Assembly: GCA_023213315.1 (NCBI GenBank)
Contig: JAKCPI010000307.1
Span: 17,612 to 81,611 of the forward strand
Direction of reading: 5' to 3'
Length of the DNA stretch: 64,000 nucleotides
Source of the DNA: Euborellia annulipes
Lineage: Eukaryota; Arthropoda; Insecta; Dermaptera; Anisolabididae
A program made the translations under genes and the position numbers. Of the stretch, positions 3,886 through 61,100 are shown piece after piece. Within the stretch, counting starts at the first letter, position 1. Each line of letters begins with the position of its first letter. The notes beneath the pieces were generated by a model, which did not search any database, was not told the origin of the DNA, and saw nothing but the letters and a program-made list of their open reading frames with translations.

Positions 3886-6297
3886 ACTTGATCAAACGTT
3901 TTGGATGCAGGCTCTGCCGGAGACACCAGAGCTTTAACTACTTCAAAGCTCGCAGACAGAGAAAAAAAACAGCTCTTTTGATCGTTGCATCAACAATCTT
4001 ATTTGCTTCTAAATAAAAATTTAGACGTTGAGCGGATAGCTTTCATTTTAACTAAAGCATGTGTAGCAACTCCACTATGTCCTGGTCACGTTACCAGGAT
4101 AAATATTGTTGGGGGTATCCTTTGCCTTCCTGGATGTTGTTTGGAAGACTGTCTCCCCGGAGGATAGTTCTTTGATGATGATTGGGATTGGGACGATAAA
4201 TTAAATAACTCTTTTATATTATAGATTTAAGGATTATGTATATGTATTTATTAAAAGATGAATAAGTATATAATTAGAGTTAGGGGTGACGTCGAAGGTA
4301 CAAATTTTCTGTTTAGGACAATTTGGACTCACAATCTATCAAATTTTGTCGAAGCTAAAAGCCCCGGAGTCTCAAACACGTTCAAATGTTTCTCAAACTC
4401 TCTACAAAGGTTTTTTTTTTCTAGACTTTTCAACTATTGGTTCTCACCTTCCAAAAGACCTTTCAAGATTGCTTAAGACTACCAATATTTTATAAAAGGA
4501 TGGATGAGCTTGCTTGCAATATTGATGATGAATGAAATTCCTCCAATGTTCACACTAACACTCTGACTACACGTGTACTTTCTAACAATATATATACAAT
4601 GTATATATGGTATTATACATCGCCTTCACTAGTGGCAAAACCCCCACTGCTCTTGCACAGCATGCCACTAACAACTGCCACCGGTTTGCCTTTGATAAAT
4701 TAAAAATTTCTTCACCATGAAGACGACAGGCAAAAAAGAGAATTCCTTGAGAAATGATATATATATATCTCAATTCGACTGCTGTGAACCATCAAACAGA
4801 CACCAAATACCTTTAATATATACTATGTGATTTTCGTTAATTTATATAAAATAATTTATTTATATTTTTTTTAATAATTATTTTCTATCCTTTGTATATT
4901 TTGTATATTTATTTTTATTTTTTATTTTTATTAATGTTTAAAACAAATTTTTTCTTGAAATCGAATTAAATTTTAAAAATCAATAAGAAGATGCCATCTA
5001 ATGATTAATATACAAACGTAGATGATCGTTCTTTTAATAGATGCTCTATATTATTTTAATGCTAATTCTAAAAAATTATTTTAAAAAACTCTAATATGTA
5101 ATATTCATCTTTGCTTACATTTTTGTAAATTAAATTTTAAAGCGCGGCACTGAAGATGATGCGTGTCAAAATATCTGCCAAATAAAGGACGTCAGGTGGA
5201 GCGATAAATCTGCTGGTTATTATTCTCCAACCCCTCTACACTACATAAAATTAATTCCAATATCATTCATTTGAACTTTGTGCCAGAATTCGAAGTGATG
5301 TCTTCTTTTGCACCTTGGATTCGACGCAGGTGCTTTTTGTAATTGTTTATATATTGTGGGTGGCTCTTATTTTTCAAAGTGAAATTTTTTTTGCCCTAGC
5401 CCCTAGTTTGATGCCATTGCATGAAAAAATAATCTGTTTAAAATTTCAGCTTTAACAGATAAAGGGAAAGAGTGCCCCAAGGGCCTTGAAAATCGAAAAA
5501 ATCATAAATTCACAGAAAAAAATCCATTTTATTTTTTATTCTTCGAAATATTAAAAATGTTAGTCGTAAAAGACAAACTGATACATGATATTATAAGCAT
5601 TTTTTGCCTTTTATTAACTTTTTTTTTTTTAATTTTTCAATTAATGTTTTTACTTTCGCGGGGGGGATATATATATCATTTTTTTTTTTTGTCAATTGTG
5701 CAAGTAACATTAAATATAAATTTTTTTAGGACTATTTAATAAAAAATACTATTAATCTGAAACAATATTCCTTGCTTAACTCAATTTTTAATTTTTTTTG
5801 GCGCTTGACACACTATTGAATAACAGGGTCCATATATGAAATATATATAGAGAGAAAGTATTGTTTTAACTCAAATTCAATCCATGACTTTATTTTTTTG
5901 ATCGAAAAAATGATATTAGTTTTAATTTTTAGTCATTTGTTAAATTTGTTTAGAAATTTTCATTAAAATAATGAATTTTTAATAAAATGAAAAAAATAAA
6001 AGAAAATATAAATAAATGTTTGTTTTCGCTACGTAATAATGAAATGCATTGTTATTATTTAAAAAAAACTTCTAGCTCATCATCCTGAAAGAACACCAAG
6101 ATGTTTATTAGTATTTTCAGCAGAGCTGCATCTCCTTATTCCTATCGATGGCATCCCCGGGCTTGTGTTCGATTTTATCCCTGAATTCCACAAAATAACT
6201 CTATTTTCTAAACTATTTTAGTTTTCTTGATCAGCTAGCTTCTTATTCGGCATAGTGAGTCCAGATGGTAATAATAATAAACTATGATGCAGTAATA
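3886..6297. other. No gene found; AT-rich repeat-like sequence
   Basis: Only short open frames of AT-rich composition occur here, with several homopolymer and TA-repeat tracts (for example around 4740-4770 and 5660-5690). The only structured signal I see is the hammerhead-like relic at 5143-5185. Confidence 0.6.
5143..5185 (+). ncRNA. Degenerate hammerhead ribozyme copy
   Basis: CUGAAGA at 5150-5156, a short stem II, then AAAAUAUC instead of GAAAUAUC (G12 to A). GGCA before the core can pair with UGCC after the cleavage-site equivalent, as in stem I of the better copies. It is probably inactive because of the G12 change. Confidence 0.5.
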
Positions 6298-7831: not shown

Positions 7832-10800
7832 ATGGGGGCTTATAAATATATCCAAGAACTCTATCGCAAAAAACAAAGCGATGTTATGCGATTTTTGCTT
7901 CGGATTCGTTGCTGGCAATACAGGCAGTTGACTAAATTGCATAGAGCTCCACGACCATCCAGACCTGATAAAGCCAGGAGATTGGGCTATAGAGCTAAAC
8001 AAGGTATTATAAACTTATCAACTTGTTTACACCTTTAATTCATTTCATGAATTTAAAATGTTAATTTTTACTTTAAATTGTAAGTTTTAAGTTATGAAAT
8101 CTGATCATTTCTAATATTTCTTCCCTAAACTGATCTGTTTTTACTTTTGCCAATTCCATTATTATTCTAAATATCTTAGACTCTATACATATATGATTTC
8201 GTGTACTCTAGCAGTGATGGTGAACCTATGACCCACGAAAGCTTTTTAGTTGACCCACGATTGCTACTCACTGAAACTCACTTAAAAAAGTTCGCTCGTG
8301 AAGTGGGAAAGAGGCGCATTAAAAATTTTTAAATCGTCAAAACACGCCTATTTTTACGCGATAAGCCAATTGAATTTTAAAGTTGTTTAGTTTTAAAAAT
8401 ACTGAGTTAAAAATCTGTAAACTTAACTCTAGTGCGAATTGGCGTTAGTGACCCACGAGCTAGTACTTAAAAAAATACGAACAAAATTTGACCCACGCCT
8501 CAAAAAGGTTCGCCATCTCTGTAAAGCCGATGGTGTTCCTTGAAAAAAAAAATGAATTTAAATAAAGAAATCTAGAATTGATTCCTTGTTCACAGGTTAT
8601 GTTATTTTCCGGATCTCTGTACGCAGAGGAGGTCGCAAACGACCTGTGCCCAAAGGTGCTACCTACGGCAAACCCAAAAGTCATGGAGTGAATCAATTGA
8701 AACCAACGAGAAACCTTCAATCAGTAGCCGAGGTGATCAATCAAGCAATATTTTCTTACTGAAAACATTCTTATTATATATGATGATAAAATTTATAATA
8801 ATGAAATTTTATGATTATTATTTCTTCCTTGGATGTCTGAAAAAATCAATTCATTTAATCTCTGAGGAGATTGGAATCATTTTATGTTATTAATTATTAT
8901 TTTTATGATCTTCCAGGAACGAGTTGGCCGTCGATGCGGAGGACTCAGAGTTCTTAATTCGTATTGGGTAGCACAAGATTCAACTTATAAATATTATGAA
9001 GTTATTCTCGTTGATCCATCACACAAGGTAAAGAACGAAATCATTAAATATTTAGAGCAGGGACGAAATTTTTTTTATATGGGTATATAGCAATATCTGT
9101 GCAATTTTTGTTTGAAAAAGTGCGTCGCATAAATAAAAGAAATAAAAAAAAATATATAACCAATTTTTTAATAAAACTTGTTTTTGAGAGAGCCCGGCCC
9201 CTCGGGGCTCGGGTAACAACAGAAAAATTTGAATTAAAAATAAATTTTAATGAAAATTTGTCTTTGAGAGGATGGCCCGGGGCTGACGTATATCCACAGA
9301 TCATACATATATCAAGATTGGACAGCTCCATGTTAAAAGTTGTCCGCAAGTTTTGACGCCCCCTTACAGAAGTTTCTGCGAACTAACTTTGCGCGCAAAA
9401 ATTAAACAGAAATTTTGTGTCAAATTAACGCTCTCTATGGCCGCAGTTCCAACTAAACAGTAAGCGGTGGAAAAAAAAACTCACCCAGATGGGTTTTGAA
9501 CTCAAGCTCGTTCGAATTCGTTGTTTGCAAATTCTACGATTTTACCCTCGCGTACACTGGTTTTGTTATTTTCACATACCTTTTTAAGCTACTTAATTTG
9601 CGACTGTTAGGCCTACTTTTAATTTTTTTTTAAACGAAATCAAATTAAGGACAAATAGTGTCTCTAAATTTGTATCTCAAATAACTTAGATATTTTAAAG
9701 AATTTTTCGACATGTTTTTTTTTTTTTTTTTTTTTTTTTTTAATGAATGAAATTCATAAATTTTTTTTATGAATTATTTATTTATTTAATTATTTTAATT
9801 TTTTTTTATTCGATTAAGTTTAAGGTCTTTTACGGCATAAGAGGCCATTTAGACCCCGTCTCTATATGATGCTAGATGTGAACCCTTGACCTTTGGTATC
9901 AGCAGTTAATACTCTACCTCTGAACCAATAATAATTTATTATAAATTGTAAAAAATTTATCTTTTGTAGGAAATCAAAATAAATAACCCCATTTCTTTTC
10001 AGATAAGATTTTTTGTAGGGCTTCTCTTGACAATGGATCGATTCTTTTCTGTGTTAAGAATATGGTCATATATAATATTGGTATTAAGAATAACACCAAG
10101 AAATATTATTTTAAAAAATGTTTATGAAAAATCTTATATATTGAAAAAGACCGTAACAGAGATCATACAATCCTGAAATTAACTTTGCTTTTGAAAATGA
10201 CAATCAAAACTCCCTGGCCTGGAGACAGCGAACAGAGCGACATCTATGGAGTAAATTTTGAACTATTTCAGACAGCCCAGTGGTGCTCTCTTGCAGTACC
10301 TTTGTGTAACTAAATAAAAACTTGCGGAAATTCTTCCCGTAGAGCTGTCCACCCCCTGGGTATATCTAATATTTTAAAAATATCTTTGTGTATGGGGGGG
10401 GGGGGGGGGGAGGGGTTAAAAATGAGTTCGGAAAAGAAATTAGGAATAGAATAGAAAAAATTTCTATATACGCCCCTGATTTAGAGTAACTAGGAGATGT
10501 TGTTTTGTTAACCCTTTTCCTAAATGTTAGAATGTTATTTTACTGTCCCCGATCAAAGTGCACGGCGTTTACTCGACGAATAATAAAATTAATCTTGAAA
10601 CTGAAAAAAGAAAAAAATTATTTTTCTTTAACATAACCTCCAATAAACTTTTATTCAATTCTGTGACGAGGTTTTTGGTTACCTTTATGTTAAACTGCTA
10701 CAGATACACTCGCCGCACAGGATCTAAGGTCAATTTAAAAAATCTCTAAGTATTTTCTAAATATTTGTTTACCGACCTGAAAAAATTAAACAAATATTTA

Positions 10801-23694: not shown

Positions 23695-24402
23695 CAGTGG
23701 TTCCCAACCTGGGGGCGATCGCCCCCAAGTGGGCGATTTGGGATATCAGGGGGCGATAAATAAGCGGGGGGGCGATGAGTATTCAAAGGGGGAAAAATTA
23801 TTAGAGTTAACTAAAATTTAAAAGAATCAATCAAAGAGAAAAAATATTGACATAAAAATAAAATAGTCTGAAGATAATTCCAATCTAGAATTGAAACGTC
23901 CCAATCTAGAATTGATTAATAATTTTTGTCATTTTTGTTTTCATTAAATAAAGATTGACCGAAAAAAAGATCAATTTTTGTTATTTTGTTCATAAAAATA
24001 AAATTATTATTAGATTTTTAAAAGGTTACGCCAGGAAAGAAATCTGACAAAAATTTAATCAATCTTTATCCTGAGGAAGGATGCGATTGCGTCCGAAATG
24101 TCGGCAATCGAAATTAAAAATTAGATAAAGATTGATTAAATTTTTGTCTGATTTCTTTCCTGGCTTCCATCCTACTCATATTTGAAAATTTCACCGTTTC
24201 AGTCACTATTTCTGCAGGTGTTGTATTTTTCATTTTGAAATGAAAACGTTTTCTGAGGAACTTGAGTGATTCACTTTGAAATAAAATACTTTTTGTTAAA
24301 AATTTTGAATCATGCAATGAAAATGAAAAGGGGGGGGGGGGCGATAGGTGATAGACAACCTCCAGAAAGGGGCGATGGGCCAAAAAAGGTTGGGAACCAC
24401 TG
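23695..24402. mobile_element. hAT-like element, 708 bp, carrying a hammerhead motif
   Basis: Termini CAGTGGTTCCCAACCTGGGGG and its inverse, with a perfect 8-bp duplication CTCTAGAG (23687-23694, 24403-24410). There is no transposase. The interior contains a direct/inverted arrangement of 'TTAAATTTTTGTC..TTTCTTTCCTGG' sequences around a hammerhead core. It sits inside a repeat whose uninterrupted paralogue is at 48474-48705. Confidence 0.9.
24062..24112 (+). ncRNA. Hammerhead ribozyme candidate inside a hAT element
   Basis: CUGAGGA 24071-24077, then a 6-bp stem II (GGAUGC/GCGUCC) with a 4-nt loop, then GAAAUGUC (24095-24102). All core bases are present. Stem III is minimal (A-U plus a U-G pair) and stem I is short and imperfect. 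Confidence 0.6.
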
Positions 24403-27852: not shown

Positions 27853-28956
27853 ATGGTTTCTAAACTTGGTGATATGTTCAGAAATTTAGCGAAGGTAAAT
27901 ACTTTTATTTTAAAAAACTCTCGTGATTATTCTAATAAAATGTTTACATCTCAGTCATTGGTCTTTTCTGAATACGGTGAACCATCTAAAGTGATAAAAA
28001 TTGTGAAACAAGAATTGAACCCTCCAGGAGCGAATGAAGTGATGCTAAAGATGCTGGCAGCTCCTATTAATCCTGCTGATATCAATACAATCCAAGGCGT
28101 TTATGGTGTTAAGCCTCAATTGCCGTCAATCGCGGGAAATGAAGGTGTTGGCGAAATTATAGACGTGGGACCCGGAGTGACTGATTTTCAAATAGGAAAT
28201 AAAGTTATTCCTAGAACGAACGCCCTCGGCACTTGGAGGACATACGGAAACTTCAAAACCGACCAAATTATGAAAGTTCCTAACGAGCTCGGAATCATCG
28301 AAGCTGCTACCCTCACTGTCAACCCTTGCACTGCTTATAGAATGCTCAAAGACTTTGTGCCACTTAAAGCCGGAGATGTTGTCATTCAGAATGGAGCCAA
28401 CAGCAGCGTAGGCCAAATGGCCATTCAGATGTGCTTAATTTTGGGACTGAAATCTGTAAATATCGTTCGTAATAGGCCAGATATTAAAGATCTGAAATCA
28501 TATTTAGTCAATCTCGGTGCGACGTATGTCTTTACAGAAGAGGAGCTGAGAAGCACAAAAGTTTTCAAAAGTGGTGAGCTGCCAAGGCCGAAATTGGCAC
28601 TCAATTGTGTTGGTGGGAAAAATGCTCTAGAAGTGATCAGGCATCTCGATAAGAACGGTTGTATGGTCACTTATGGGGGCATGTCGAGGGAACCAATTTA
28701 TGTACCAACTTCAGCACTGATATTTAAAGATATTAGCCTGAAAGGATTTTGGATGACGACTTGGACCAAAGAAAATGCAGGAAATGAAAAACACCAGGAA
28801 ATGTTGAAATTCCTTTACGATAATTATATCAATGGCTCTTTGAAGTTGCCTGCCCATAAATTAGTTAAAATTGAGAATTATCAAGAGGCCCTAGTGAACA
28901 CAATGAATGTCCAAGGATTTACAGGCTTAAAATATATATTAATTTTAAATAATTAG
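27853..28956 (+). CDS. MECR: Mitochondrial trans-2-enoyl-CoA reductase (MECR)
   Basis: MECR catalyses the NADPH-dependent last step of mitochondrial fatty acid synthesis type II, which supplies lipoic acid precursors. One uninterrupted exon encodes 367 aa, the normal length. It has a basic, Arg/Lys/Ser-rich N-terminus suited to mitochondrial import (about residues 1-30), then a medium-chain dehydrogenase/reductase fold. Visible marks are the active-site region INTIQGVYG with its conserved Tyr (Tyr84), NEGVGEIIDVG, the NADPH-loop NGANSSVGQ (residues 180-188), LALNCVGG and TYGGM. AATAAA follows at 28968-28973. The first Met was chosen; Met8 and Met30 are alternatives that would shorten the import signal. 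The absence of introns while neighbours have them could mean a retrocopy, but the frame is intact. Confidence 0.96.
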   Translation: MVSKLGDMFRNLAKVNTFILKNSRDYSNKMFTSQSLVFSEYGEPSKVIKIVKQELNPPGANEVMLKMLAAPINPADINTIQGVYGVKPQLPSIAGNEGVGEIIDVGPGVTDFQIGNKVIPRTNALGTWRTYGNFKTDQIMKVPNELGIIEAATLTVNPCTAYRMLKDFVPLKAGDVVIQNGANSSVGQMAIQMCLILGLKSVNIVRNRPDIKDLKSYLVNLGATYVFTEEELRSTKVFKSGELPRPKLALNCVGGKNALEVIRHLDKNGCMVTYGGMSREPIYVPTSALIFKDISLKGFWMTTWTKENAGNEKHQEMLKFLYDNYINGSLKLPAHKLVKIENYQEALVNTMNVQGFTGLKYILILNN

Positions 28957-28979: not shown

Positions 28980-29280
28980 TTTATTTTTATATTTTATAAT
29001 TTAAAAAAAATTTATATTAATATAATTTAGAAGAAATGATTCTTTTCCTATTATTTGTTAATTTCTATTTTCAAAATATATACTTTTGATTACTTTATTG
29101 TAGTTTTCTTTTAATACATACCTAAAATTGTTCATTTTAAAATAAGAAAGAATTTGGTTTATAGTTGACAACCTAAATGGCATTAAATATTGATGAAACG
29201 CCTCTAAGTTGAAAGGCTGTAGATATTTAACTAGAAGAATGGGACGGGAGCCAACAGCCTGGCGTAATAAAAGGCTTTTT
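28980..29280. other. No gene found
   Basis: AT-rich flank of MECR with no coding potential. Confidence 0.4.
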
Positions 29281-29341
29281 TATTTTGTTGCCGACGTTTC
29301 GAGTGCTTGTAGCCCTCATCCTCAGGACAAGCAAAATTGTC
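29281..29341 (-). ncRNA. Type I hammerhead ribozyme candidate
   Basis: Minus strand: CUGAGGA (29325-29319), stem II GAG-GC/GC-CUC with loop UACAA, GAAAC (29300-29296) and GUC (29295-29293). Stem I pairs UUGUC with GGCAA, then after a 1-nt bulge AUUUUG with CAAAAU. The core is complete, with the minimal stem III typical of hammerheads in Penelope-like elements. Confidence 0.75.
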
Positions 29342-40603: not shown

Positions 40604-43600
40604 TTATTCATATCTCACCTGGTCAGTACTTTCAACAATGAGCATAATTGAGCCTGCAGCTGCAGCGGCGGCTGCAGCGGCAGCTGCGGCTCCAGCGGAG
40701 GTTGAATTTTCTGAATTCCCTGTTCGACTAATGCATTCCATTTGGTGTCTATTCCAATCTCTTCTTTGGCAAAACGTTGAACAGTATGGGGTTCGGCGAC
40801 ATATTGAACATTCAGCAAACGCATCTCTATTGCAATTCGCACACTGAAATAAATTTATTATTATTATTAATAAATGTAACAATCCATTGTTTCAAAGGGC
40901 GTAGGGGGGAGGGGGGAGGGGCAACCACTCGTTAGGACGAGAGGGGGGGGGATGCAATTAATATATACACAGATTATTAATTATTTTTAAAAAAAATTTA
41001 ACAATGGGAAAAATATATGGAATTAAATTGGTAGAATTAAAGAGGTTCGTTTGATTATTCATTTTTTTTTTTTAAATTTGTTTAAAGTCTTTTTCGGCAT
41101 CTGAGGCCATTTGAACGATGTTATGCATAAAGGAACCAAACGCCATTATGGCCAATTGTGATAAGACCGCCATCTTGAAGGGAAAAAGAAGATCTACCTC
41201 TTTATTTAAATCACAACATTATTACTCTGTGCACTTTTTAATGTGAAACTTTTATTACATCGACTCAAATTTTTTCGCCCATCTATAAGCATGTCGCGTT
41301 ATAAGCAGTGACGTCACACCAAGTTTTTGTATAGAACAAGAAAAATTCATTGCCATTGGTTTTGTTGACAAGTGTGCGCCCTTTAACTCCGATTTAGGCT
41401 AATGGCGCTTGGTTCCTTCGTGCCAGGGGCGGATACAAGGGGGGTACCCCCTCCGAGATTTAAAAAAAGACTTTTTTTTTCGAAAAAAAATTTATTTTTA
41501 ATGTAAAATTTTAAAAATTAATACTTAAAAATTTGATTTGTATTTATATTCTGGCAAACAAGTATAGAATGTGCCTTTAAATTACCGAAATTAAGAAAAA
41601 ATTGTGTGCTGTGCGACCAGTCACACCAGATTACCCCCCCCCCCCCCCGGAAAAACACCTCTGGATCCTCCCTTGCTTCGTGCATAACATCGTCTATATA
41701 GATCCTGTCCCTATTTATTTCAATTGATTTGTATCCAGGGACGAGATGTGAACCCTTGCCCTTTGGCAGAAGCTAATGCCTTACCTCTGAACCATAGCTC
41801 AAGGGCGATTATTAATTTTAATAATTTTAAATAATTTTATTTCTTCCTTTGGAATAACAACTTAAATTCTCTTGAACTGTTGACATTTAACCGCAAATGG
41901 AAGAGGTGGACATGACACTCACAACCAAAAGGATTCTCTCAAGCGATGCATTTTATTTTCTTTATAATGAATAATTATTAATTGATCTTTTCATTCGACT
42001 TGAAACTTACAAGATGTACCGAAGACCGGAAGAAATTAAACAAAGAATTTTTGACGGAGTGTGATCAATACTAAAGAAAGTTTGGTTCCTATTTGTGCCG
42101 CAATGTGCAAGATCTTTAAATAATAATAAAAAATACCTTTTTGCTTTCCCCGGCATCTGATGTCGGCTCTAAACAAACAGTTTCAAGTGAATCCACGACG
42201 TGTACTGGCAAGGCTTCTCCCCTGAAAAATAAAATGAATTATTTATTTTGATTATGGATGGAAGGATTTCTATGAGGCACTGCCATCCAGCCCACGCCTT
42301 CTGGGTTAACCACACCGTCGGAGTCATCCCCATTTTTTAAGGGTGAGATTTTCTCCCACAAAAAGTGGTTCTAGGGTCCTCCATCCTGTCTGAGCGATCA
42401 TTTAGATAACGAATTGAATGAACATAATCGCCAAATTTAATAAAATTTCAACAACAAAAGGGGCGATTGTTTCCTTTATTGGAGAGAGTTATCTGTTATA
42501 TTATAAAATTTCTATCTTTTAATATGCAACAAAAGATGAGAATTTATTTTTAATGTCAGAATTACGTATCATAACAGCCTTAAATTAATTATATTCTTCT
42601 TTTTCCATTCATTTCGCTGTATTACAAAACACCCTTTCAGAGGGCAAATCCTTCACAGACAAACAATTAAATCGAAATTGAAAATTCGTTGTTAATTATT
42701 TTATATATTATGACTTGATAAAGAGAAAAATAAATTAATAATTTATTTATAATTATATTCTCAGGTCAAAAGCTGATAAAAAAAATGAACCTATGAACCC
42801 TTGCTAAATAAATAATTTCAAAATCACTATCAGTAAATGGCTGAGGCCAGGATTTTCTCTCAGTTGGAGGGGGGGGGGGGGGGCAAGAGACTAGACCCCC
42901 CCCCCCCGCCCAAACTCTTTAAGTAGTGGAATTTTTTTCTATTAGTTAAAATTCACTTCTCCCCAATTATTCAGTCTGAATCAGGCCAAAAGGTAAAATA
43001 AAAGCAAAATTTAATGGATTTGATTGTAAATAAGGTTTTGAAAAAAAAAAAAGTCTTTAGGAGGAGCATCTCTAGCCCCCAAAGAGCCCTCAAAGAATAA
43101 CATCCATTGGGTCGTCCACATATTACGTAATGCGTTAAGGGGGGGGGGGGGTTCTCTAAGTGTGACAAAACAAATCAAAGTTTTTTTTTTTAACGGAGAC
43201 TATTTAGGCCCCGTCTCTATTTATTTCAATTTATTGGTAGCCAATTAAATTGAAATAAATTGTCGCATGAGACGGGATGCGAACCTGCGGCCCTTGGTAC
43301 AAAAGGCCCCCACGCTAACCCCTCCAAGGCCCGAGGGCGCAATTCAAAGTTGAATTTATAAAATTTTTTTTCGGATTATTAATCGACGTCAATAAGTAAG
43401 TAGTATTTGATATTTTTATGTTATGTGCCGAGGCTTGCAGCGCTAATTTATTATAATTTGACAGTTCAGATATAAAAAAAATCCTAGTCCTTGAAGATGA
43501 GTGCGAGTAGCGCTCTAAACGTCGACGACAGAATATAAAGTTTTTTATTTTACCTGGCTGCTGTGTCATTATCATATATAACTGTTATCATCAAAGTCTT

Positions 43601-46600: not shown

Positions 46601-49600
46601 CCCCCCCCCCCCTAGAAGCAAGAAAAAAAAATTAAATGTTTATAAAGTGATGAAACAAAACAAAATTAGGTAGGGCGATGGCGACGAGGAATGATTTAGG
46701 ACTCGAGTGCTTTTAAGCCTTTAATTCGAAGGCTTTTCCCCTTTATATAAAAAAAAGCTATGTCACAATCTGGACGGCCATGATCTGCCCCCCCCCCTAG
46801 ATTTGATCCTGGGTCCCAGGACTTAATGTTTTGATTGCAAGAAATGAGGGAAGTTTATATATCACTTGGGAGTTGAATAGAATTAGAAAAGACGCAAGGT
46901 CAAAAGATCAGGTCATTTGACAAAGAAACAAATGCAAAAACAAACATCAAGAGCAACTTCTCTCAAAAAATTTCTGCTTCTAAGCTATAAAAGTGAACTA
47001 AAGTTCATTTGTTGCATTTGTCAGTATCGTATCCAAAGTCAACTAGTGATTAGAGCCTGCGTTGTCTCACTCCGTATCAAAATTTACAATTATGATATGA
47101 AACAAGGCCACTTGTCGGTATTTCGCAATCGCTTCAAAGAAATGATATAAATACGCATGAGGCATTATATGGTACACGAATAATATCGCTGCGTATCAGA
47201 CACTGGTGAGAGGGGCTGAAGCATCGCAAAATGCAAAAAGGGGATGGATTTAATGTATTTAAGCACTTCACTTGCCTCCTCGCAAAAAGGGGATATCCGC
47301 CTCAAAGGGTTCAAACATTCACAGAAGAGATCGTGGGTTGGAATCTGGCCATTCTATTAAATTAGAATTATGATTATTTATTTAATTATGATTATCTAGT
47401 GAAAATAGCATTTTGCAGTCGTTAATGTAGAATTCTTTATTTTGCACCTCTATGATTTAGCAAATATTATTGTATTTTGTAATAAGCAGGCTCAAATTCA
47501 TCAAATATAATAACAGTTGAAAGCATTACCTTGAACATGCGACTTGAGCCTCTACGCGTGCAGCCATTAACTCTTGTTGATGAGATTCCTTGAGCTGTTC
47601 AATTTCTTTTCTATGATTTTCCTCAACCGTTTTACGATACTGATAGAGAAGTTTGAGATTTCGATCTGAAAGCTAAATAAAGAAAAAAGACAATCAATGG
47701 CCAACCCCGAAATTAGGTGTTAATAGAATTTAACAAAAAAAAAATTACCATTTCAATTTTTTTAAATATTTCATCGGCAGGTGATGCAGTGGAATTTGTT
47801 GTAAGATTAAATTCTGCTAAATCATTCACTGATTGCGTTGGAGAATTGGTAGGTTGAACGACTGGTGGTGAGGCCGGCACGACAATCGAAGAATGGTACG
47901 AGGAGCCTCCACTATTTGCCCAAGTTTCTTCGCATTTATTTATTCCTTCTAAAAAGATCAAACAAAAATATTCATTTTAGATATTAATATGTGAAAAGGT
48001 GTTGCAAATAATGGGAGAGTATATTTTTTAAAGAACTTTTACATTAAATAAATAAATCAAATAAGTGATTGTTTTTTTTCTCTCCCAACTAGATATATAT
48101 TTATTTTATTTTAATCAATAAAAAATATAAATTTATTTTCTAAAAAAAAGAGATAAAATAAAATACCTCCTCCGCTATCCTCCCCGTTACTTCCGTCTTT
48201 AGATGATACCAATTTATATTTTTTAGTATTCATCATTTCGTCAAGTGTTTCTTTACGTCGTCTTCTTTTATAAGGAGTAAAAAGACGTACGGGGCCAGTC
48301 TAAAAAACAATATAAATTTAAGATGAACGAATTACTCGATTGAAATGGGCAATTTTTTTTTAATTATAAATCTATAAAATTCTGAAAAGAATTGCAATTT
48401 GAAAAATTATTAAATGAATTAAATTTACTAAAATAAATTAATAAATAATAAATAATAAATATCAAGTGTCAATTTAGTCGGCGACAAAAATGGACAAGAG
48501 TTTTCTGAAGGCTAATATTTTCAGAATAGGTTGCATTTTAGTGATGGAAAGAAACTCTAGAGTCAGCACTTCCAGTACCGCGACCTTTGGCGGGAATAAG
48601 CCGGTAAAGATGCGGGAAGATGGTTTTTCGCTAATATCTCGAAAACTACGCGGTTTTCCGGAAAAATTCATCTATACAAACATAAGTGAGTGTGAGTGTG
48701 AATGAGAAAAAAGTGTGAGTGTTCTTTTTTTTTTAAGCCGACATTTTAACCATGTTTGAGACCATCCTGATAAATAAAAACAAAGTATAATCATCTATTT
48801 AAATTATTAGTAAAAAATTGAAAATAATCGAGTAGATCATTAGTTATTAAATTAAATTTACGGGCAGACTACCTTTATCCTAGTTCGCCGGCCCAATAAA
48901 CACAAAATCTCGCATCCGCCTTTTATAATAATGAAATTAAAATTTCATTGACTCGAAAAGATGGAAATTTTTCAATTGACGCTCTATTTGACAGTCTATT
49001 TGAGCGTTAATTGAAAAAATCCCATCTTTTTAAAACAAAGTTCTTTTTTCTAGTTAAATTGACTTACCGCTGAATCATCGTCACAGCATGCAGAACATGT
49101 GCAGCTAGTTGCGTGAGGGCTTAAAATTCCTTCATCAATTAAAGTTTGCAAACTTCTGCCTCCAAAACTGAAATGATAAATTCATTTTAAAAATAATCTC
49201 TAATTTTAATAAATATACATAAGAAATTATTTATAATATTTACCGAATGCTTCGTTTCCAATCTTTGCTCGATGCCCTTCCGCAAAGAGCCTCGAATTCA
49301 CTTGGAGTATACCATGTGTCGGAAAATTTGATACATCGACCTCGCCCTCCTGAGCCAAATCTGCATTTATGCAGCTCAGCGTTCGTACTCTAAAGATGGA
49401 CAAAACAACATACCAGCTGAAATTATTCATTAAAATTTTTATGTAATTCTTTTGCTGACATGTTCCTAGGTTCACGTTTGTTATGTTTTTTTAACAATGG
49501 CTTATAACAATGGATATTTGTTATTAAATTTAATTTAAATTTTTTTTTGGCTTCTAAATAATTTAGAAAAATGAGGGAAGAGTCTAAATGGCCTCAGATG

Positions 49601-52600
49601 CCTTTAAAAAATGGGATTTGCCAGAAAGAAGAGGAACCAGCAAAATAAAATGAAACTCGTGACGGATGGAACCCAAAGATCAAAAAGTTTAATGTTCGCC
49701 GTAATATATTAATAATTTGATTATATATATATAGCTTCCTGCTGGAAAGGGTATAAAAAATTGATTCGATTTTATTAAGAATTAATCTGATCCTAAGATC
49801 TTTGAATGCCTTTCGAGCAATCAATTGAAGCTTCCAAGGTTTGGTAAATATTCTATTCAATAATATTATATTATTATAAAAAAATATATAAAGAGAAAGA
49901 GACTTCAAGATTTTCTAGTAATAGTATAATCTCTGGGTCCGCCGAAACAAGATTTTCAGCCGAAACCGAATATTCGGCCTCAACCTTAGTTTCGGCCGAA
50001 ACCGTAACAAACCGAAACTTATATTTCCTATAAAAAATTTTTTCAGTCTCATCCCATTTTTTCAGACTCTGGTTTCGGCCGGCCGAAAGTTTCGGCTACT
50101 TTTTGGCCGAAACCGAAACTACAGCCGAAACCATGATTTTTGGCCGAAACCTAACCGAAACCAATATTCGGTCGGTTCCTAATAATTTTTTTGAGCAGAA
50201 ATGAGAAATTTTCTTACTTTAATTAATTTTTAAATAAATTTACACAAATATTTCTTTAAATATTTTATATTTTCAAAAATAAAATTTATTTTGAGATCTT
50301 TTTGTTTTTTATAAATTTTCTGATTATGGGCCAAAAGACTATATCGGCACAATCAAGGTCTATATCCACTAGGAGTGCCCTGCCCCTGCCGTGCCGGTAA
50401 TAGCCGAGCAATGTACAGACGGCCACGGTACGGCCGAAGGCAATTTCCACTAGGCGTGCCGTGCCGCTGCGTGAGATGCCGTAGTCCGATTTCGCTCGAA
50501 GGACTGTCGTCAACGGCAGATGGCAAATGGCACGGCAGCGGAACTGCAAGTTTAGTGGAAATTGAAACGGCAGCACGGCAGCGGCACGGCCTAGTGAAAA
50601 TTGACCGTAGGCCGGCAAGCTCAAGCCTCGCATGAACAATGAGCCACTGAGTCTGACTCAGTGAGGGTCGAACAGGAAAACCAGTCTGTGTTGTATAGAT
50701 ATATTGTCTTGGATTGTGTTTATATTAATATTGTTCGATTCAATTCCCAAAATACGCCCTAGAAATAACTATAAATCAATAGTTCCGAAAGTAATGTCTT
50801 CTATTTCTAGATACGTAGGGCTTATAGCTGGTAGTTCAATCAGGATAGGTGAAAAGGTGAAGAAAATCTGCAGCTAATTGTATTTCATTATTTTATTCCC
50901 ACCACGTTGACGTTTCGATCCCGGTCAGGATCATCTTCAGAACAGGTGGGTGTTATGTATGTGTATATATGTAAATTTCAATCATTGAAATTTACATATA
51001 TACACATACATAACACCCACCTGTTCTGAAGATGATCCTGACCGGGATCGAAACGTCAACGTGGTGGGAATAAAATAATGAAATACAATTAGCTGCAGAT
51101 TTTCTTCACCTTTTCATCTATCCTTCTATTTCTTTTCATGTAAATTAATGGAAATACATATTAATAAATAACAACAGCACAGCTAAACAGAGCAATATGT
51201 CAGCTACAGACTGTCAATTTTTTCATATAGTTCCCTTCTTCTGTCCTCGCCTTATTATTCCCGCGGTGCGGGGTCGGCGGACCTTATTCTATCCCTCCAC
51301 TCCCCCCTATCCAATGCTGTTGTCTCTGACAGGCCAAGCTCGGTCATGTGTCTCTTGACCCGATGAAGCTAAGTCATCCTAGGTGCTCCTCTTCGTTGTT
51401 GTCCGAGAAGCCCCATATCGTACGCCGTCCTCGCCACGCCACTACTCTCTTGGCGTACGACATGTTCAAACCAGCGGAGACGCCATTCGCGCATCTTGTC
51501 AGTGATTGGCGCAATGCCAAACCTGCTCCTAATGGTATAATTGGGGATGTGGTCAAGTCTGATGACACCAAGTGACCACTTGGCCATCCGCATTTCCATA
51601 TAGTTCCCACCATTCTTTATTCACTTTTACCAACGATGAACCAGAGGATGCATGCCGCTCTTGTAGAAAACCGGAACCAGCTGAGGCTAACTCTTTCTTA
51701 CAGATTCCGAGTTTTGGAAATGTCCGCCACGTAGCCCATCTTTCTCTTTATGCCTCTGAAAGATGGACTACGTAGCCTCAGCTGGTTCCGATTTTTACAA
51801 GGGCGGCATGCAAAAGTGCATAACGAATGGTGGGAACTATGCGGAAAAATTACAGTCTCAAGATGACATATTGCTCTGTGCTCGTGATTCGTGGCTCCGA
51901 GAGAACAATTTAGCTTCTCGTGGCTGGGGTCTCGGGTTCGCTTCCCGCGAGACAAATTTATTTCATTTGAATTGGCTACCGATCATTTGAAATAAATAGG
52001 GATGGGCCTTACATATATATATGTTCTGGAAGGTTTCCGCGACCGGATGGATGTATGCGAAGATAAGTTTTTTACCCGAGAAAACTTATCTTCGCATATA
52101 TATATATTTAAGGTCCATCCCAGGATCAATACTTTAATTAAAACAGAATTAGTAAAGGGCCAAAGTCCCACACAAGATGCATTTTATACATCTGATAATT
52201 TCAATGTTTTTATAAAAGTTTTTGGAAAATTTCCAAAGATGGGATCCCGGAAATTTCGGTCACTGTACATTTCTCATTTCTGCTTCGACCTTTATGAGAA
52301 TAGTCCAAAATGATACCTTGCAACGAACAGGCAAAACAGCCATATTTGCAGATTCTGCCCATGATGAATTAAGAGAATTGGTAGGAGTGGTAATAGTTGA
52401 TTGTTCTTCGATTGGAGTACTTTCACTCTGAATGACAATGTGAGTTGCTTTGATTTCACCATTTTGTGAGCGAACCCACGACCTTAGTTGTTCTGAACCA
52501 TCTTTATCAGCTCTTGGATCACAAATAAAACTATTTTCTACACAGAGGACGTGTGGTTTGAAATTTGGAGTCCCTTGAATCTAGAGAGAGAATAGAGAAA

Positions 52601-52877
52601 ATAAAATAGTTTAAAAATAATTTAAAAATAATAAAAAAAAAAAAAAAAAAATGAATGGAATGTTACATACTTGAAGTTGGTCGGGTGTAATCACATTAAA
52701 AGTAGTTGCTCCGCCAGAAACTCCTATAAGAGAACTTACTGGAAGGGATACTGGAACAGAAGACACCGAAGCCACGGGGACAGCTGTAACATTAGTAACG
52801 GAGGCTCCATGTTGAACATCGGGTTCGTTCGCCAGAGGATCGGATATGTCCGGCATTACATTCGATTCTTCTTCCAT
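40604..52877 (-). CDS. Deaf1: DEAF1 transcription factor (SAND + MYND)
   Basis: DEAF1 is a nuclear DNA-binding factor recognising TTCG-type sites; in Drosophila it acts in homeotic control and immune gene expression. Nine exons: 52877-52671, 52580-52317, 49389-49244, 49167-49068, 48299-48167, 47948-47749, 47672-47530, 42221-42137 and 40843-40604, all phase-consistent, giving about 505 aa. The SAND domain spans exons 2-5 ([56 protein letters not shown]), followed by a basic nuclear signal (YKRRRRKE). Exon 7 is a coiled-coil-like helix. The last exon is a MYND zinc finger ([21 protein letters not shown]...[13 protein letters not shown]), then an alanine run (12-13 residues) near the C-terminus. 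A minus-strand AATAAA is at 40519-40524. Intron 7 (5.3 kb) contains a PGRP gene on the other strand. Confidence 0.97.
41424..41675. mobile_element. hAT-like MITE (CAAGGGCGGATAC family) in DEAF1 intron 8
   Basis: 252 bp with a perfect 8-bp duplication CTTCGTGC (41416-41423, 41676-41683). Starts CAGGGGCGGATACAAGG and ends CTCTGGATCCTCCCTTG. Confidence 0.9.
43110..43773. mobile_element. Non-autonomous element with GGTCGTCCACATATTACGTAA termini
   Basis: Inverted termini of at least 20 bp at 43110-43131 and 43751-43773. The interior holds a tRNA-like SINE head (about 43260-43340) and a hammerhead relic (43480-43528: UUGAAGA, a 6-bp stem II GAGUGC/GCGCUC, then UAAACGUC with G12 lost). I could not fix the target duplication. 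It lies in DEAF1 intron 7. Confidence 0.65.
44095..46278 (+). CDS. Secreted non-catalytic peptidoglycan recognition protein (PGRP-SA-like)
   Basis: PGRPs bind bacterial peptidoglycan and start immune signalling (Toll in the case of PGRP-SA) or hydrolyse it. Four exons, 44095-44143, 45311-45557, 45624-45742 and 46097-46278, fit in phase and give 198 aa. Exon 1 encodes a hydrophobic signal peptide ([16 protein letters not shown]). The PGRP/amidase_2 domain follows: [48 protein letters not shown] and a C-terminal [16 protein letters not shown]. Of the zinc/catalytic residues, only the first His (QHTAT) and the Thr are kept. The Tyr is Leu (DIGLSF), the second His is Gln (IAQRQV) and the Cys is Ser (TVSPG), so it should bind but not cut peptidoglycan. 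AATAAA is at 46349-46354. The gene lies wholly inside DEAF1 intron 7, on the opposite strand. Confidence 0.95.
44245..44290 (-). ncRNA. Hammerhead-like ribozyme, one core change
   Basis: CUGAAGA (44283-44277), a 7-bp stem II GGAUUGC/GCAAUUC with loop GUAG, then GCAAUAUC (A13 to C), and stem I UGCA/UGCA. The right-arm partner at 45118-45160 has an intact GAAAUAUU but a broken CUGANGA. Confidence 0.55.
44437..44839. mobile_element. hAT-like element (CAGGGGTCGGCAACCT family)
   Basis: 403 bp, termini CAGGGGTCGGCAACCTTTTT and GTTGCCGACCCCTG. Flanks GTCTAAAA (44429-44436) and GTCTATAA (44840-44847) match at 7 of 8. No transposase. Confidence 0.88.
46566..46820. mobile_element. MITE with 8-bp duplication
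   Basis: 255 bp, flanked by a perfect ACTTAATG (46558-46565, 46821-46828). Starts CATAGGCGTACCCAGCGGGG and ends GATCCTGGGTCCCAGG; the inverted termini are poor. The 8-bp duplication and C-rich interior point to hAT. Confidence 0.7.
46829..47529. other. Unassigned part of DEAF1 intron 7
   Basis: Moderately complex sequence with an open plus-strand frame (46917-47150) that I do not recognise. No RNA signal. Confidence 0.35.
48474..48705. repeat. Repeat copy that is the empty site of the 23.7-kb hAT insertion
   Basis: It is an inverted relative of 23570-23694 plus 24403-24490: 'TAGTGATGGAAAGAAACTCTAGAGTCAG' here against the flanks of the hAT element there. It has a single CTCTAGAG where the other copy has two with 708 bp between them. 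Located in DEAF1 intron 4. Confidence 0.8.
49935..50195. repeat. GCCGAAACC-rich repeat related to the 17.6-kb MITE
   Basis: Many GGCCGAAACCGAA units in both orientations, ending TTCGGTCGGTTCCTAATAAT as in the element at 17555-17814. The left end (TGGGTCCGCCGAAAC) is altered. Confidence 0.6.
50367..50596. mobile_element. GC-rich MITE with CACTAGG termini
   Basis: About 230 bp, strikingly GC-rich in an AT-rich region. The left end CACTAGGAGTGCCCTGCCCC and right end GGCACGGCCTAGTG are inverted, and GTGCCGTGCCG-type units are repeated inside. Superfamily uncertain. It lies in DEAF1 intron 2. Confidence 0.6.
50898..50950 (-). ncRNA. Type I hammerhead ribozyme candidate (left arm)
   Basis: Minus strand: CUGAAGA (50940-50934), stem II GAUCC/GGAUC, GAAAC, GUC (50911-50909). 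Stem I pairs UGUU with AACG and, after a one-base bulge, CCCACC with GGUGGG. The complete core and stems are identical to the plus-strand partner at 51015. The motif is in sense orientation to the DEAF1 transcript. Confidence 0.85.
51015..51069 (+). ncRNA. Type I hammerhead ribozyme candidate (right arm)
   Basis: CUGAAGA (51026-51032), 5-bp stem II GAUCC/GGAUC with loop UGACCG, GAAA (51050-51053), C-G, cleavage triplet GUC (51055-51057). Stem I pairs UGUU/AACG plus CCCACC/GGUGGG around a one-base bulge. This is the best hammerhead in the window. Minimal stem III suggests activity as a dimer or in context. Confidence 0.85.
51254..51599 (-). pseudogene. LINE ORF2 C-terminal fragment
   Basis: The minus-strand frame reads [28 protein letters not shown]...GAPRMT, then after a TAG stop [20 protein letters not shown] and [14 protein letters not shown] with double stops. 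This is the standard tail of non-LTR retrotransposon reverse transcriptases. It is 5'-truncated and carries an internal stop, so it is dead. Located in DEAF1 intron 2. Confidence 0.85.
51600..51850. repeat. Hairpin repeat
   Basis: Arms ATAGTTCCCACCATTC and its complement continue through GATGCATGCCGC..., CCGGAACCAGCTGAGGCTA and GTAGCCCATCTTTC, with the turn near 51735. Directly after it, 51890-51955 is GC-rich with a B-box-like GGGTTCGCTTCCC. Confidence 0.75.
52010..52125. repeat. Hairpin repeat with TA-rich inner arms
   Basis: GGGATGGGCCTTA...ATGCGAAGATAAGTTTT is mirrored by AAAACTTATCTTCGCAT...AAGGTCCATCCC. A 30-bp insertion sits in the left arm. Confidence 0.7.
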
Positions 52878-52929
52878 GGCGGCAAATCCACTACAGTCCT
52901 CTATTTATAATATCAATTTTATTATATAT

Positions 52930-55564: not shown

Positions 55565-56100
55565 AAAATATATATGCATAATTATATTTTTAATTTATGT
55601 ATGTTTTTAGGCCTATGTGCTATTTTTTATTTCTATATACTATATTTATACTCTCTACCATACTCTATTTATCTAATATATTGATACATATTCATATATA
55701 TATTTAAAACTTTTTGAAAATTTTAATGTAATGATGTATTTATATCTTTAATTTTATTTTTTTATATTTATATTATTATATAGAGATTTATTCCTGAAAG
55801 ATATTTGAATTATTTTTTTTATTAACGATTTTAAATTCTAATTAATCTAACAATTATTATAATAAATGTGGAATATTTGACAATGATTTTCATACCTTAT
55901 TTGATAAAATAAATTTATTATATTAACACTATAAAAAAGCGTTTTATCATTTATATTTATAAATTTCACAAGTCAATAAGGTTCTTTCAGACAATTTGTA
56001 CCTGAAGAGACAAAATGGAAGACAAATTTTAATATTATGGAATGGAAAAGAATAAGTACAGATGCAGCAAATGAAGAGAGCCTTTGGATGCTAAATGCCG

Positions 56101-56150
56101 AAAAGGAGACGTTTCGGACAAAATTTATTCGTCCATCTTCAGTCCTCGTT
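56101..56150 (-). ncRNA. Type I hammerhead ribozyme candidate (left arm)
   Basis: Minus strand: CUGAAGA (56142-56136), stem II GGACGAA/UUUGUCC, GAAAC, GUC (56110-56108), stem I GAGGA/UCCUU. Complete core. Confidence 0.8.
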
Positions 56151-56351
56151 GGCTTATAAATTAATTAGGCACAAAGTTGTCATTGTTGCTTTGGCACGAA
56201 TTTGTGCGCATGTATATTTTTTTTTATTTTTTTATATCTTATAGACACTCACGAAACATTGACACTCGCCTGTTTTTATAAAAAAATATACATGGGCACA
56301 AATTCGTGCCAAAACAACAATGACAACTTTGTGCCTAATTAATTTATAAGC

Positions 56352-56402
56352 CAACGAGGACTGAAGATGGACGAATAAATTTTGTCCGAAACGTCTCCTT
56401 TT
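56352..56402 (+). ncRNA. Type I hammerhead ribozyme candidate (right arm)
   Basis: CUGAAGA (56361-56367), stem II GGAC.../...GUCC of about 7 bp, GAAAC, GUC ending 56395, stem I GAGGA/UCCUU. Sequence-identical in the core to its left-arm partner. Confidence 0.8.
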
Positions 56403-56661
56403 TCGGCATTTGGCATCCAAAGGCTCTCTTCATTTGCTGCACCTGTACTTGTTCTTTTCCATTCCATAACATCAACAGCAACTTCTCTTCGAATTAAATT
56501 TTAATATTATTTGAAATTCCTATTCCCGTTTATTTACCCAAGGTGCTCTCTACCATATATATTTTTTAAATATTAAATAAGTATTATTATTTAATGAAAA
56601 ATCCCGCACGCCAAGGATTTGAACAGGGATCTTCTTTGTAATGGAAGACAAATATAAATTA

Positions 56662-58170: not shown

Positions 58171-61100
58171 ATGATGGAAATTGAACAAGAAACGATATAT
58201 GGGACTCATGAGGATTCTCATGTTGTCATGTCTGAAAAAGTTCAATCATTAGCAGGAAGTATTTATCAAGAATTTGAAAAAATGATTGGAAAATATGATC
58301 AAGATGTTGTTAAAGATTTAATGCCGTTGGTTGTGAATGTATTAGAATGCCTGGATTTATCATATACGGAAAATCAAGAACATGAAGTTGAACTGGAATT
58401 GCTTCGTGAGGATAATGAACAGCTGGTGACTCAATATGAGAGAGAAAAGCAATTAAGAAAAGCATCCGAACAAGTAATTACACTTTACAATCATATCTTT
58501 CTAATTAAATATGCTAATTTTTTTTTTCATTGATAAACTCACATCCTAGAATTATTTTTAAACATTTATTTCTTTTTTTTATAGAAACTTTTAGAAGCCG
58601 AAGATGCAAATGAAGATGAAAGAAAAGAATTAAATGGCAAAATTGAAAGCTTAGAATCTATAGTAAGAATGCTTGAATTGAAATCTAAAAATGCTTCAGA
58701 TCATGGTATGTATTTGTCAATTTATTGATTAAAAACTGAATCTTTTTTATTACTTAAAAATCACTATTTAGAGATTTTTTTTTCACTACCTACAGGCCAA
58801 TTTAGTATGGCTTAGATGGCTAAATCGCCCCCCCCCTCTCTCTTCTCACATTGGTCTTGAATAAAACTTTATAAATTACAAATTTTAATTCTCATGCATA
58901 CTATTTCCTTTTGACCCTCACATTTTATTGGTAAATATTTCGGTCGGCATGACCCCAGACCATCTAAAGTACAAGAATATGCTTGGGTAGAGGAACTGTG
59001 TCAATAAATATAATATTTTTAAATAAGCAAAAGTTTTTTTTTTCTAAAAGTTTTATACTTAGGTCCTGCATCTAAGATCGCCTGCCAGAATAAAATAATA
59101 AAGCCTATATAATCTTAATTTTCTCTCACATCTAACAAAATTCTTAATTAGTTTTTAGATTGGAAGAAAAAGAAAATGAACAAAAACGAGAATATTCCAA
59201 ATTACACGAACGTTACACAGAATTATTCAAAACTCATATGGATTATATGGAACGAACGAAAATCTTAATGGGAAGTGCAGAACGATTAGAAGGCGAGGGA
59301 CGTTCAAGATTACCTCCAATGAGTCTTGGGCCCTTGAATAGGTAAATTAAAAATTATAAAAAAGTTTTATGTTTGATTTATAAAACGATTTAATTTCAGA
59401 TCAACAGGTCCTGTATCATTTGGCTTTGCATCTTTAGAAGCAAGTATGAGATCTGTGGGCACACCAAGCGAATTTGGAGCTCCAGTTTCACCTCCAGACA
59501 GCAATCACTCTAATACAAGTTTACGTCATGAATTACAGGTATATATTCAAATTATTATTCAATCCAAATAGCAATTTATATTTTAAATAAATATTTATTT
59601 ATGTTTTTAAATATTAATCACAAAAGTTTTCTTTTTTCTATTTATTTATTTATTTACTGATAAAGATAATCAGTACAGAGCCTGCCCTTTTAGGGTCAAT
59701 GGCCTAAGACAATAAAAAAAACCTTTTACCCTTTTTAGTTGGTAAACAATAAACTCTTTTATAAATCCTTTTATCAAAAACTTTAGAAAAAATTTCTTAA
59801 ACTACTTAGGAGCAAAGATCAACTAATGTAAACATACACTGCTCCGCAAAAAAGTGGCGCACTTTGTTTCTTCTTAAGGTGTGCTAATTTTTTGGGAGAT
59901 TGCGGCCACAATTTTGAAGCTATCGACTTCAAATTTTTTTTAATTAAAGCTATTTAAAATATCTACAACTTATAGAAGCCCTTTTTTTGATTTTCGAAAA
60001 AATAAATTTTGATTATGATTAATATATTTTTAAAAAATCCGCTCTATATCTTATAGATAATTAAATTAGTAATCATTGTGTTAAAAAATAATTAATTTTT
60101 CACCGTTAATTAATTAGCTGGAATCTTTCAAATGAAATGGAATAAATCCCTTGTTTCCCTATGGGAAAAACTAACGCCATCTCTTGCCGCCTTGAGTAAC
60201 CAGCTTCTGAATCGTCTTCTAACGGTTTTTCGAGACACGCACCTTAAGAAGACCTGTTCTAATCAAGGGCAGATACAAGGGGGGGGGGGGGGGGTAAAGG
60301 GCCTAATTACCCCCCCTGAGATTTGAAAAAAAAAATACTTTTTTTTCGAAAAAAAAAATGTATTTTTAATGTAAAATTTTAAAAATTTGATTTGTATTTA
60401 TATTCTGGCAAACAAGTACAGAATGCGCCTTTAAATTACCGAAATTAAGAAAAAATTGTGTGCTGTGCGACCAGTCACTTCAGATTCCCCCCCCCCCCCG
60501 AGAAACACCTCTGGATCCGCCACTGGTTCTAATCTATCTTTATAATACTGTCATTTAAGAAACATTTAATATGAAATATTCTATACAGTTCTAAGTAAAT
60601 TTAACACAAATCCATATCGTTTTTAATAAATAATTACAATTTAAATAAAATAAAGACAAAAATGTCGAAATTTTTTTTATTAACGCAAAATTTTTAAAAT
60701 TTTAAAATAATCATTCCATTTCAGTTTTCCTCTGTTTATTTTACTGGAAATTCTTATGAAAACAAAATTTTTAATTAATATCCAGCTAAACATATCGAGA
60801 TTATGTTGACTAGGGCGGATACAAGAGGAGGGGGGAAAGGGGTAATTACCCCCCCCCCCCCCGAGACTTGAGAAAAATATATTGTTTGGGAAAAAAAATT
60901 GTATTTTTAATATAAAATTTTAAAAACAAATACTTAAAAATTTGATTTGTATATATATTCTGGTAAACAACTACAGAATGCACCTTTCAATTACCGATAA
61001 TAAGAAAAAATTGTGTGCTGTGCGACCAGTCACACCAGATTCCCCCCCCCATCCCTCCGAGAAACTCCTCTGGATCCGCCACTGTATGTTGTTTTGTTCA

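Follow-up and report, generated by a model that had tools for sequence, protein, structure and literature searches.

The palindrome and its surroundings

The window, i.e., the whole 64-kb stretch of DNA that was analysed, carries a DEAF1-like gene on its minus strand, recognized by a SAND domain at 49255-49389 (E 2.4e-16) and a MYND domain within 40607-40891 (E 1.8e-9). A minus-strand segment at 52614-52904, picked by eye and without a match to a Pfam family, is a candidate N-terminal exon. Judged from these sequence positions, the palindrome studied here (50842-51124) likely lies in an intron of this gene. Its left arm is in sense orientation to the gene, as proposed in an earlier note on this DNA, since SAND and MYND are both encoded on the minus strand. 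Further open frames are located at 27853-28956 (+), presumably resembling a mitochondrial enoyl-CoA reductase, and at 58171-58533 (+), which we take to resemble a JNK-interacting protein.

Feature coordinates are provided in Table 1. The palindrome is formed by two 141-nt arms that are 99% complementary, with position 50849 as the sole mismatch, around a centre of 1 nt. The earlier note had placed a near-perfect palindrome at 50842..51125. Its near-perfect character holds, but the palindrome proper ends at 51124 and the element is larger than the palindrome, i.e., a tail and a target site duplication also belong to it. The sequence CTTCTATTTC is directly repeated outside the tail and at the far right end, which indicates that the unit was inserted in one piece. 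With regard to coding capacity, 50842-51124 gave no match to 78 homologous proteins (see below), such that neither RT nor endonuclease is found in the window copy. On its sequence, the copy is a non-coding, truncated member of the Penelope-like elements (PLEs). When the window was scanned for perfect palindromes (arms of at least 14 bp, centre of 0-3 nt), one other site emerged, a perfect inverted repeat at about 14433 with 17-bp arms and a 3-nt centre.

Table 1. Features of the two head-to-head hammerhead pairs, in window coordinates.
Feature	Position	Strand	Remarks
Left target site duplication CTTCTATTTC	50798..50807	+	identical 10 bp at 51123-51132
PLE tail, 34 bp, GATTGAACTACCAGCTATAAGCCCTACGTATCTA read outward	50808..50841	-	left side only
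Left pLTR arm	50842..50982	-	outward orientation
Left hammerhead motif, stem I to stem I	50895..50953	-	predicted cut between 50909 and 50908
AUG overlapping the hammerhead core	50932..50934	-	predicted cut 26 nt after its A
Right pLTR arm	50984..51124	+	outward orientation; without tail
Right hammerhead motif	51013..51071	+	predicted cut between 51057 and 51058
Right target site duplication CTTCTATTTC	51123..51132	+	first 2 bases overlap the arm end
Second head-to-head hammerhead pair, different family	56029..56475		arms 56029-56226 and 56277-56475

Hammerhead motifs in the arms

Read outward, each arm shows the order ACACCCACCUGUU-CUGAAGAU-GAUCC-UGACCG-GGAUC-GAAAC-GUC-AACGUGGUGGG. That is, we find CUGAAGA, one extra U, GAAAC and GUC. 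Stem II comprises 5 bp and a U-G pair, stem I has 10 bp (4 + 6) interrupted by a bulged U, and stem III is loopless and two pairs long. Two outward-facing hammerhead-like motifs with minimal stem III had been reported before, and they are present, one per arm, with all parts of the described core (CUGANGA, 5-bp stem II, GAAAC, GUC, bulged 10-bp stem I). The 5' ends given there, 51058 (+) and 50908 (-), coincide with the predicted cuts after 51057 (+) and 50909 (-). While core and stems were thus described correctly, the additional U that separates A9 from stem II went unmentioned. This U belongs to an AUG and, in the predicted fold of each arm, pairs (U-G) with the G of GAAA. Folded alone, the 59-nt motif of each arm adopts a hammerhead shape at -21.2 kcal/mol, with 4 out of 200 shuffled sequences folding as well. 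The pattern CTGANGATG-N8-24-CGAAACG occurs 5 times in the window compared to 0 times in 100 shuffles.

Scoring with the Rfam hammerhead models had been named beforehand as a check that could refute the assignment, and it yielded no covariance-model match in the palindrome, neither at the gathering threshold nor with E values up to 10. The models also gave no match on six related loci. Since Rfam misses these loci as well and other copies keep the stems, this result loses force. When a lax threshold is used, the top matches in the palindrome are microRNA precursors below gathering scores, which is expected because the palindrome is a long hairpin.

Preservation of the stems was assessed over 59 distinct copies. 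These were selected by CTGANGATG-N15-GAAACGTC and aligned without gaps, i.e., their core is fixed by the selection. For stems I and II, 85.3% of the cells hold standard pairs (shuffled: 78.9%; 0/500 shuffles as high), 71 cells are changed on both sides (23.8; 0/500) and the covariation is 0.277 (0.167; 0/500), where relatedness among the 59 motifs inflates the covariation counts. Not above the shuffles of the same 59 motifs are the number of pairs with a double change (9 vs. 7.9; 160/500) and the number of pair types (23 vs. 23.0; 307/500). Structures slid along the alignment reach a pairing of at most 46.2%. Among the double changes are A-U to G-C in stem II as well as C-G to U-A and U-A to C-G in stem I. 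Taken at the level of the alignment, three of the five measures indicate covariation in stems I and II, and core and stems fit a type I hammerhead.

The two-pair stem III suggests that the predicted ribozyme needs a partner or a protein for self-cleavage. According to the available parts of two reviews, PLE hammerheads are minimal versions that lack helix III and may work in dimeric form (PMC7761336, PMC6155905).

Paired copies, tails and target duplications

The genome from which the window derives (903 Mb, 25,949 contigs) was searched for related copies. The last 27 bp of the tail, with at most 2 mismatches, have 841 matches, while the reversed control has none. A search with the right arm lists at least 57 matches (best 40 of 1253 candidates scored). 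Among the listed contigs with two arm matches less than 1 kb apart, all 20 show the outward (minus-then-plus) order, as counted by eye.

For a systematic count, 77 loci were collected. Left out beforehand were 9 of them, namely 6 that overlap others and L031, L043 and L074, which form one tangled C120 locus. Two loci (L041, L054) showed no arm match and 11 only a single arm, and L040 was left out due to its inward order, with arms from two subfamilies 1.1 kb apart. This leaves 54 pairs. After removal of 7 that belong to another subfamily and 6 whose flanks recur in a retained pair, 41 non-duplicate pairs were counted (including L018, whose outer arm was set by hand). Here, a tailless or 'short' end denotes an end at which no tail was found.

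A tail is present at exactly one end in 39/41 pairs. The same holds for 20 of the 22 pairs that were found via the arm alone. The exceptions among the 41 are L007 without a tail and L027 with two tails. In three of the 39 pairs (L063, L069, L070), the tailless end is elsewhere than at the proximal site or the arm is a short fragment, such that the absence of a tail cannot be equated with a proximal end in every case. Target duplications of at least 8 bp are observed for 24/41 pairs compared to 10/1640 mismatched flank pairings. They range from 9 to 16 bp, where some bases could be part of the element itself. No duplication of this minimal length was detected for the other 17/41 pairs. As a side observation, L017, L027 and L055 have tails on both sides and share the sequence CTTATTTCTTGTTA... 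beyond both tails, which may reflect read-through over a longer distance or an inverted repeat of larger size.

Near-perfect palindromes are a classic assembly artefact, and the window palindrome is of this type, such that an assembly or hairpin-read artefact has to be considered. However, its flanks differ between the two sides, it has a one-sided tail and a target duplication, and many independent copies exist, each with its own flanks. We therefore regard an artefact as practically negligible.

In many pairs other than the window copy, the inner ends are unequal and spacers of up to about 770 nt are found. We also tried the assumption that both arms of every pair are nearest relatives. It failed in 12/15 pairs, i.e., the partner arm was strictly the nearest relative in only 3/15 pairs, window included (39 arms after dropping 5 duplicates), and we dropped respective age and template claims for old pairs. 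A common template is thus shown for young pairs alone, and gene conversion is possible. For the window copy itself, AATTAG is present in both arms and in 0/42 of the remaining arms (44 arms aligned), which points to a single source or later homogenisation.

These data bear on a snap-back origin, in which one cDNA primed at the tail site folds back at its 3' end and copies itself into a palindrome with a tiny loop. Equal arms, a 1-nt centre and 99% identity make the window copy look like such a product, and the available part of PMC3846280 proposes self-priming for the Penelope palindromes of A. vaga. Nevertheless, the copied arm should then also have the tail, which is found on one side only, and the unequal inner ends and long spacers of the many other pairs do not fit a tiny loop. 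We thus consider snap-back copying unlikely.

Coding relatives

Next to non-coding pairs, the genome contains coding relatives. In C4390, two direct pLTRs, identical over 278 bp and each with the hammerhead core and tail of the window family, surround a frame of 865 codons without stops that continues from the tail. The last 325 codons of this frame match GIY-YIG (E 6.9e-5, just above Pfam's cut-off) and are 60% identical to the protein of L071. Its RT part is assigned via a match over residues 8-820 of P0002, a homologue of the L071 protein that carries RVT_1, and not via Pfam on C4390 itself. Compared to the window arm, the C4390 pLTR is 92% identical over positions 41-142 and 90% over about 2-32, with about 140 nt of other sequence in between. 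C4390 is therefore a member of a sister subfamily and not the source of the window copy.

The L071 locus (C12451) holds two outward partial copies with Pfam matches to RVT_1 (E 9.6e-9) and GIY-YIG (E 1.8e-5). A hammerhead of a sister subfamily follows each copy, and a related tail is found on one side only. When P0002 is compared with the genome, at least 56 matches are listed (best 55 of 4179 candidates scored). Among these 56, 15 are within stop-free open frames of at least 800 codons, one of them C4390. For the L071 frame, we found 78 homologues, of which 14 are listed with an organism name: 8/14 are insects, the other six being a tick, a flatworm, a comb jelly, two rotifers and a crinoid. 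A PDB sequence search with the L071 frame returned no match. Within the window, a fragment at 4640-4807 (+) resembles the GIY-YIG part of a PLE protein (44.6% identity, E 2e-5).

The combination of an RT joined to GIY-YIG with pLTRs and a tail places the family among the Penelope-like elements. This is relevant for another possible origin, namely a foldback or miniature inverted-repeat DNA transposon that carries hammerhead motifs by chance. Inverted ends and target duplications would be in line with such an element, but the ends are unequal given the one-sided tail, the duplications vary from 9 to 16 bp, the inner ends are variable, and the same end sequence is found as direct repeats around a GIY-YIG frame. 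A DNA transposon is hence hardly credible.

A second head-to-head pair

The window holds a second outward hammerhead pair (Table 1), which the hammerhead inventory of the earlier note had missed and which accounts for two of the five motif hits mentioned above. It is flanked by a 14-bp target duplication, AAATTTTAATATTA, at 56024-56037 and 56496-56509, and a tail-like stretch is observed on the right only (about 56470-56495). Its arms are similar over stretches of 126 nt (98%) and 76 nt (93%), and its hammerheads fold as expected for the type, not strikingly so, i.e., 9 and 11 out of 200 shuffles fold as well. The pair is a member of another PLE family, so this arrangement extends beyond a single family.

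The second pair is also detected by a home-made hammerhead covariance model, for which E-values are rough and matches to the first pair are given by construction. The same model reports a third motif, i.e., a single hammerhead-like motif of a third type at 29279-29340 (-) with 27.2 bits. Weaker matches are located at 23856-23912 (+; 25.7 bits), 24060-24114 (+; 21.4 bits), 43477-43537 (+; 17.8 bits) and 8849-8881 (+; 11.5 bits).

Origin of the palindrome

We are highly confident that the palindrome is a 5'-truncated PLE insertion in which two outward pLTR ends are joined back to back. In terms of its sequence features, it shares its pLTR ends with an element encoding RT and GIY-YIG, has a one-sided tail within the 30-40 bp range, and is bounded by a short duplication. 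The window palindrome is thus an ordinary PLE product. Inverted pLTR arms, the one-sided tail and coding relatives in the genome also bear out two suggestions of the earlier note, i.e., a PLE origin and a head-to-head duplication.

Such an insertion could arise as follows. The GIY-YIG endonuclease of the element would cut the two strands of the target at positions a few bases from each other, and each cut strand would prime reverse transcription. The left arm would start at the distal site, and thus include the tail, while the right arm would start at the proximal site, which is the pLTR end. Both cDNAs would stop soon after crossing the hammerhead, which would be copied as uncut RNA, and their 5'-side ends would then be joined. 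In the full element, the hammerhead probably processes tandem transcripts, either as a dimer or with protein help. Respective steps are known in part from other PLEs. According to the available text of PMC11167929, the protein of Anolis PAc cuts and extends both target strands in vitro, and reverse transcription has two neighbouring internal start sites, with the tail as the segment in between. For Adineta vaga, the accessible part of PMC3846280 describes pairs of inverted pLTRs, one of which carries a tail, together with a 9-bp duplication and junctions that are palindromic.

The earlier note had instead read the palindrome as a head-to-head copy of a self-cleaved or circular ribozyme RNA. 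A hammerhead is indeed present, and metazoan retrozymes are expressed as circular RNAs (PMC7229834, as far as its available part goes). However, the arms extend 67 nt beyond the predicted cut to a recurrent end other than the cut, and a one-sided PLE tail is found. Furthermore, the two recurrent outer ends of the copies are not at the cut, and the inner ends do not cluster there: 3/113 are within 3 nt of the cut and 1 exactly at it, where ends beyond the query are clipped. Given arm extension and recurrent ends, it is improbable that an RNA cleaved at this hammerhead served as the template. Since a religated circle can be read through the cut, we grade a circular template as unlikely. In addition, PAc hammerhead mutants insert normally in vitro according to the available part of PMC11167929. 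Overall, copying of a ribozyme RNA appears very improbable.

Returning to the PLE insertion, the near-strict presence of exactly one tail raises the question of how start sites are chosen. Under independent choice, exactly one tail is expected in at most half of the insertions, and observing it in at least 20/22 pairs has a p-value of about 6 in 100,000. It may be that both choices are coupled, i.e., one strand is primed at the distal site (tail) and the other at the proximal site, such that nearly every insertion becomes an inverted one-tail pair. We put this forward tentatively, at somewhat less than an even chance. The in vitro PAc study, in its available part, reports no strand difference in start site (PMC11167929). 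A prior count of tails on inverted PLE pairs was not found in the literature surveyed, which covers parts of the relevant texts and has key papers outside of it.

Comparison with known systems

With the pLTR hammerheads that Lunse et al. are said to have described in 2017, the motifs share the location within pLTRs, the near-absent helix III and the core CUGANGA...GAAAC-GUC. According to the available parts of the respective papers, Penelope/Poseidon PLEs of A. vaga, Anolis (PAc) and others have in common with our family the inverted pLTR pair and palindromic head-to-head junctions (PMC3846280, PMC11167929) as well as an optional 30-40 bp tail on one pLTR, a short target duplication, and relatives with RT and GIY-YIG. 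In contrast to these known PLEs, the window copy is without a coding part, its family, pLTR and tail sequences are those of its own genome, and its placement in this clade is tentative. For PAc, the distance from the A of the overlapping AUG to the cut is the same 26 nt (PMC11167929, available part). There, however, the AUG starts the ORF, while the frame of the window AUG stops, by reading, after 13 codons.

Animal retrozymes are likewise non-coding repeats with type I hammerheads. They form tandem direct repeats with fuller hammerheads (PMC7229834, available part), whereas we observe inverted pairs with PLE tail and pLTR and a stem III without a loop, so that the retrozyme reading offered earlier does not hold.

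Expected transcripts and implications

Folding of the whole palindrome yields -252.3 kcal/mol compared to -21.2 kcal/mol for a lone hammerhead. On either strand, the sense hammerhead is located in the arm that is transcribed second, i.e., after its own complement, and each transcript contains one sense hammerhead. This would imply a long hairpin, no dimer in cis and little cleavage. Based on this fold model, we predict little cleavage of the DEAF1-like pre-mRNA. Silencing of the ribozyme by pairing with the other arm had been raised before as a possibility, and both the order of the arms and the energy of the whole fold speak in its favour. More generally, the outward orientation predicts that such scars are poor ribozymes and that transcripts crossing them give long hairpin RNA.

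Two independent head-to-head hammerhead pairs within a 64-kb window indicate a common PLE scar and not a peculiarity of a single site. The near-strict one-tail rule lends itself to counting wherever a genome is rich in PLEs and is relevant to the way in which these elements complete integration. If true, the coupling of start sites would be a new constraint on the mechanism of PLE integration, e.g., a dimer holding both sites of one RNA.
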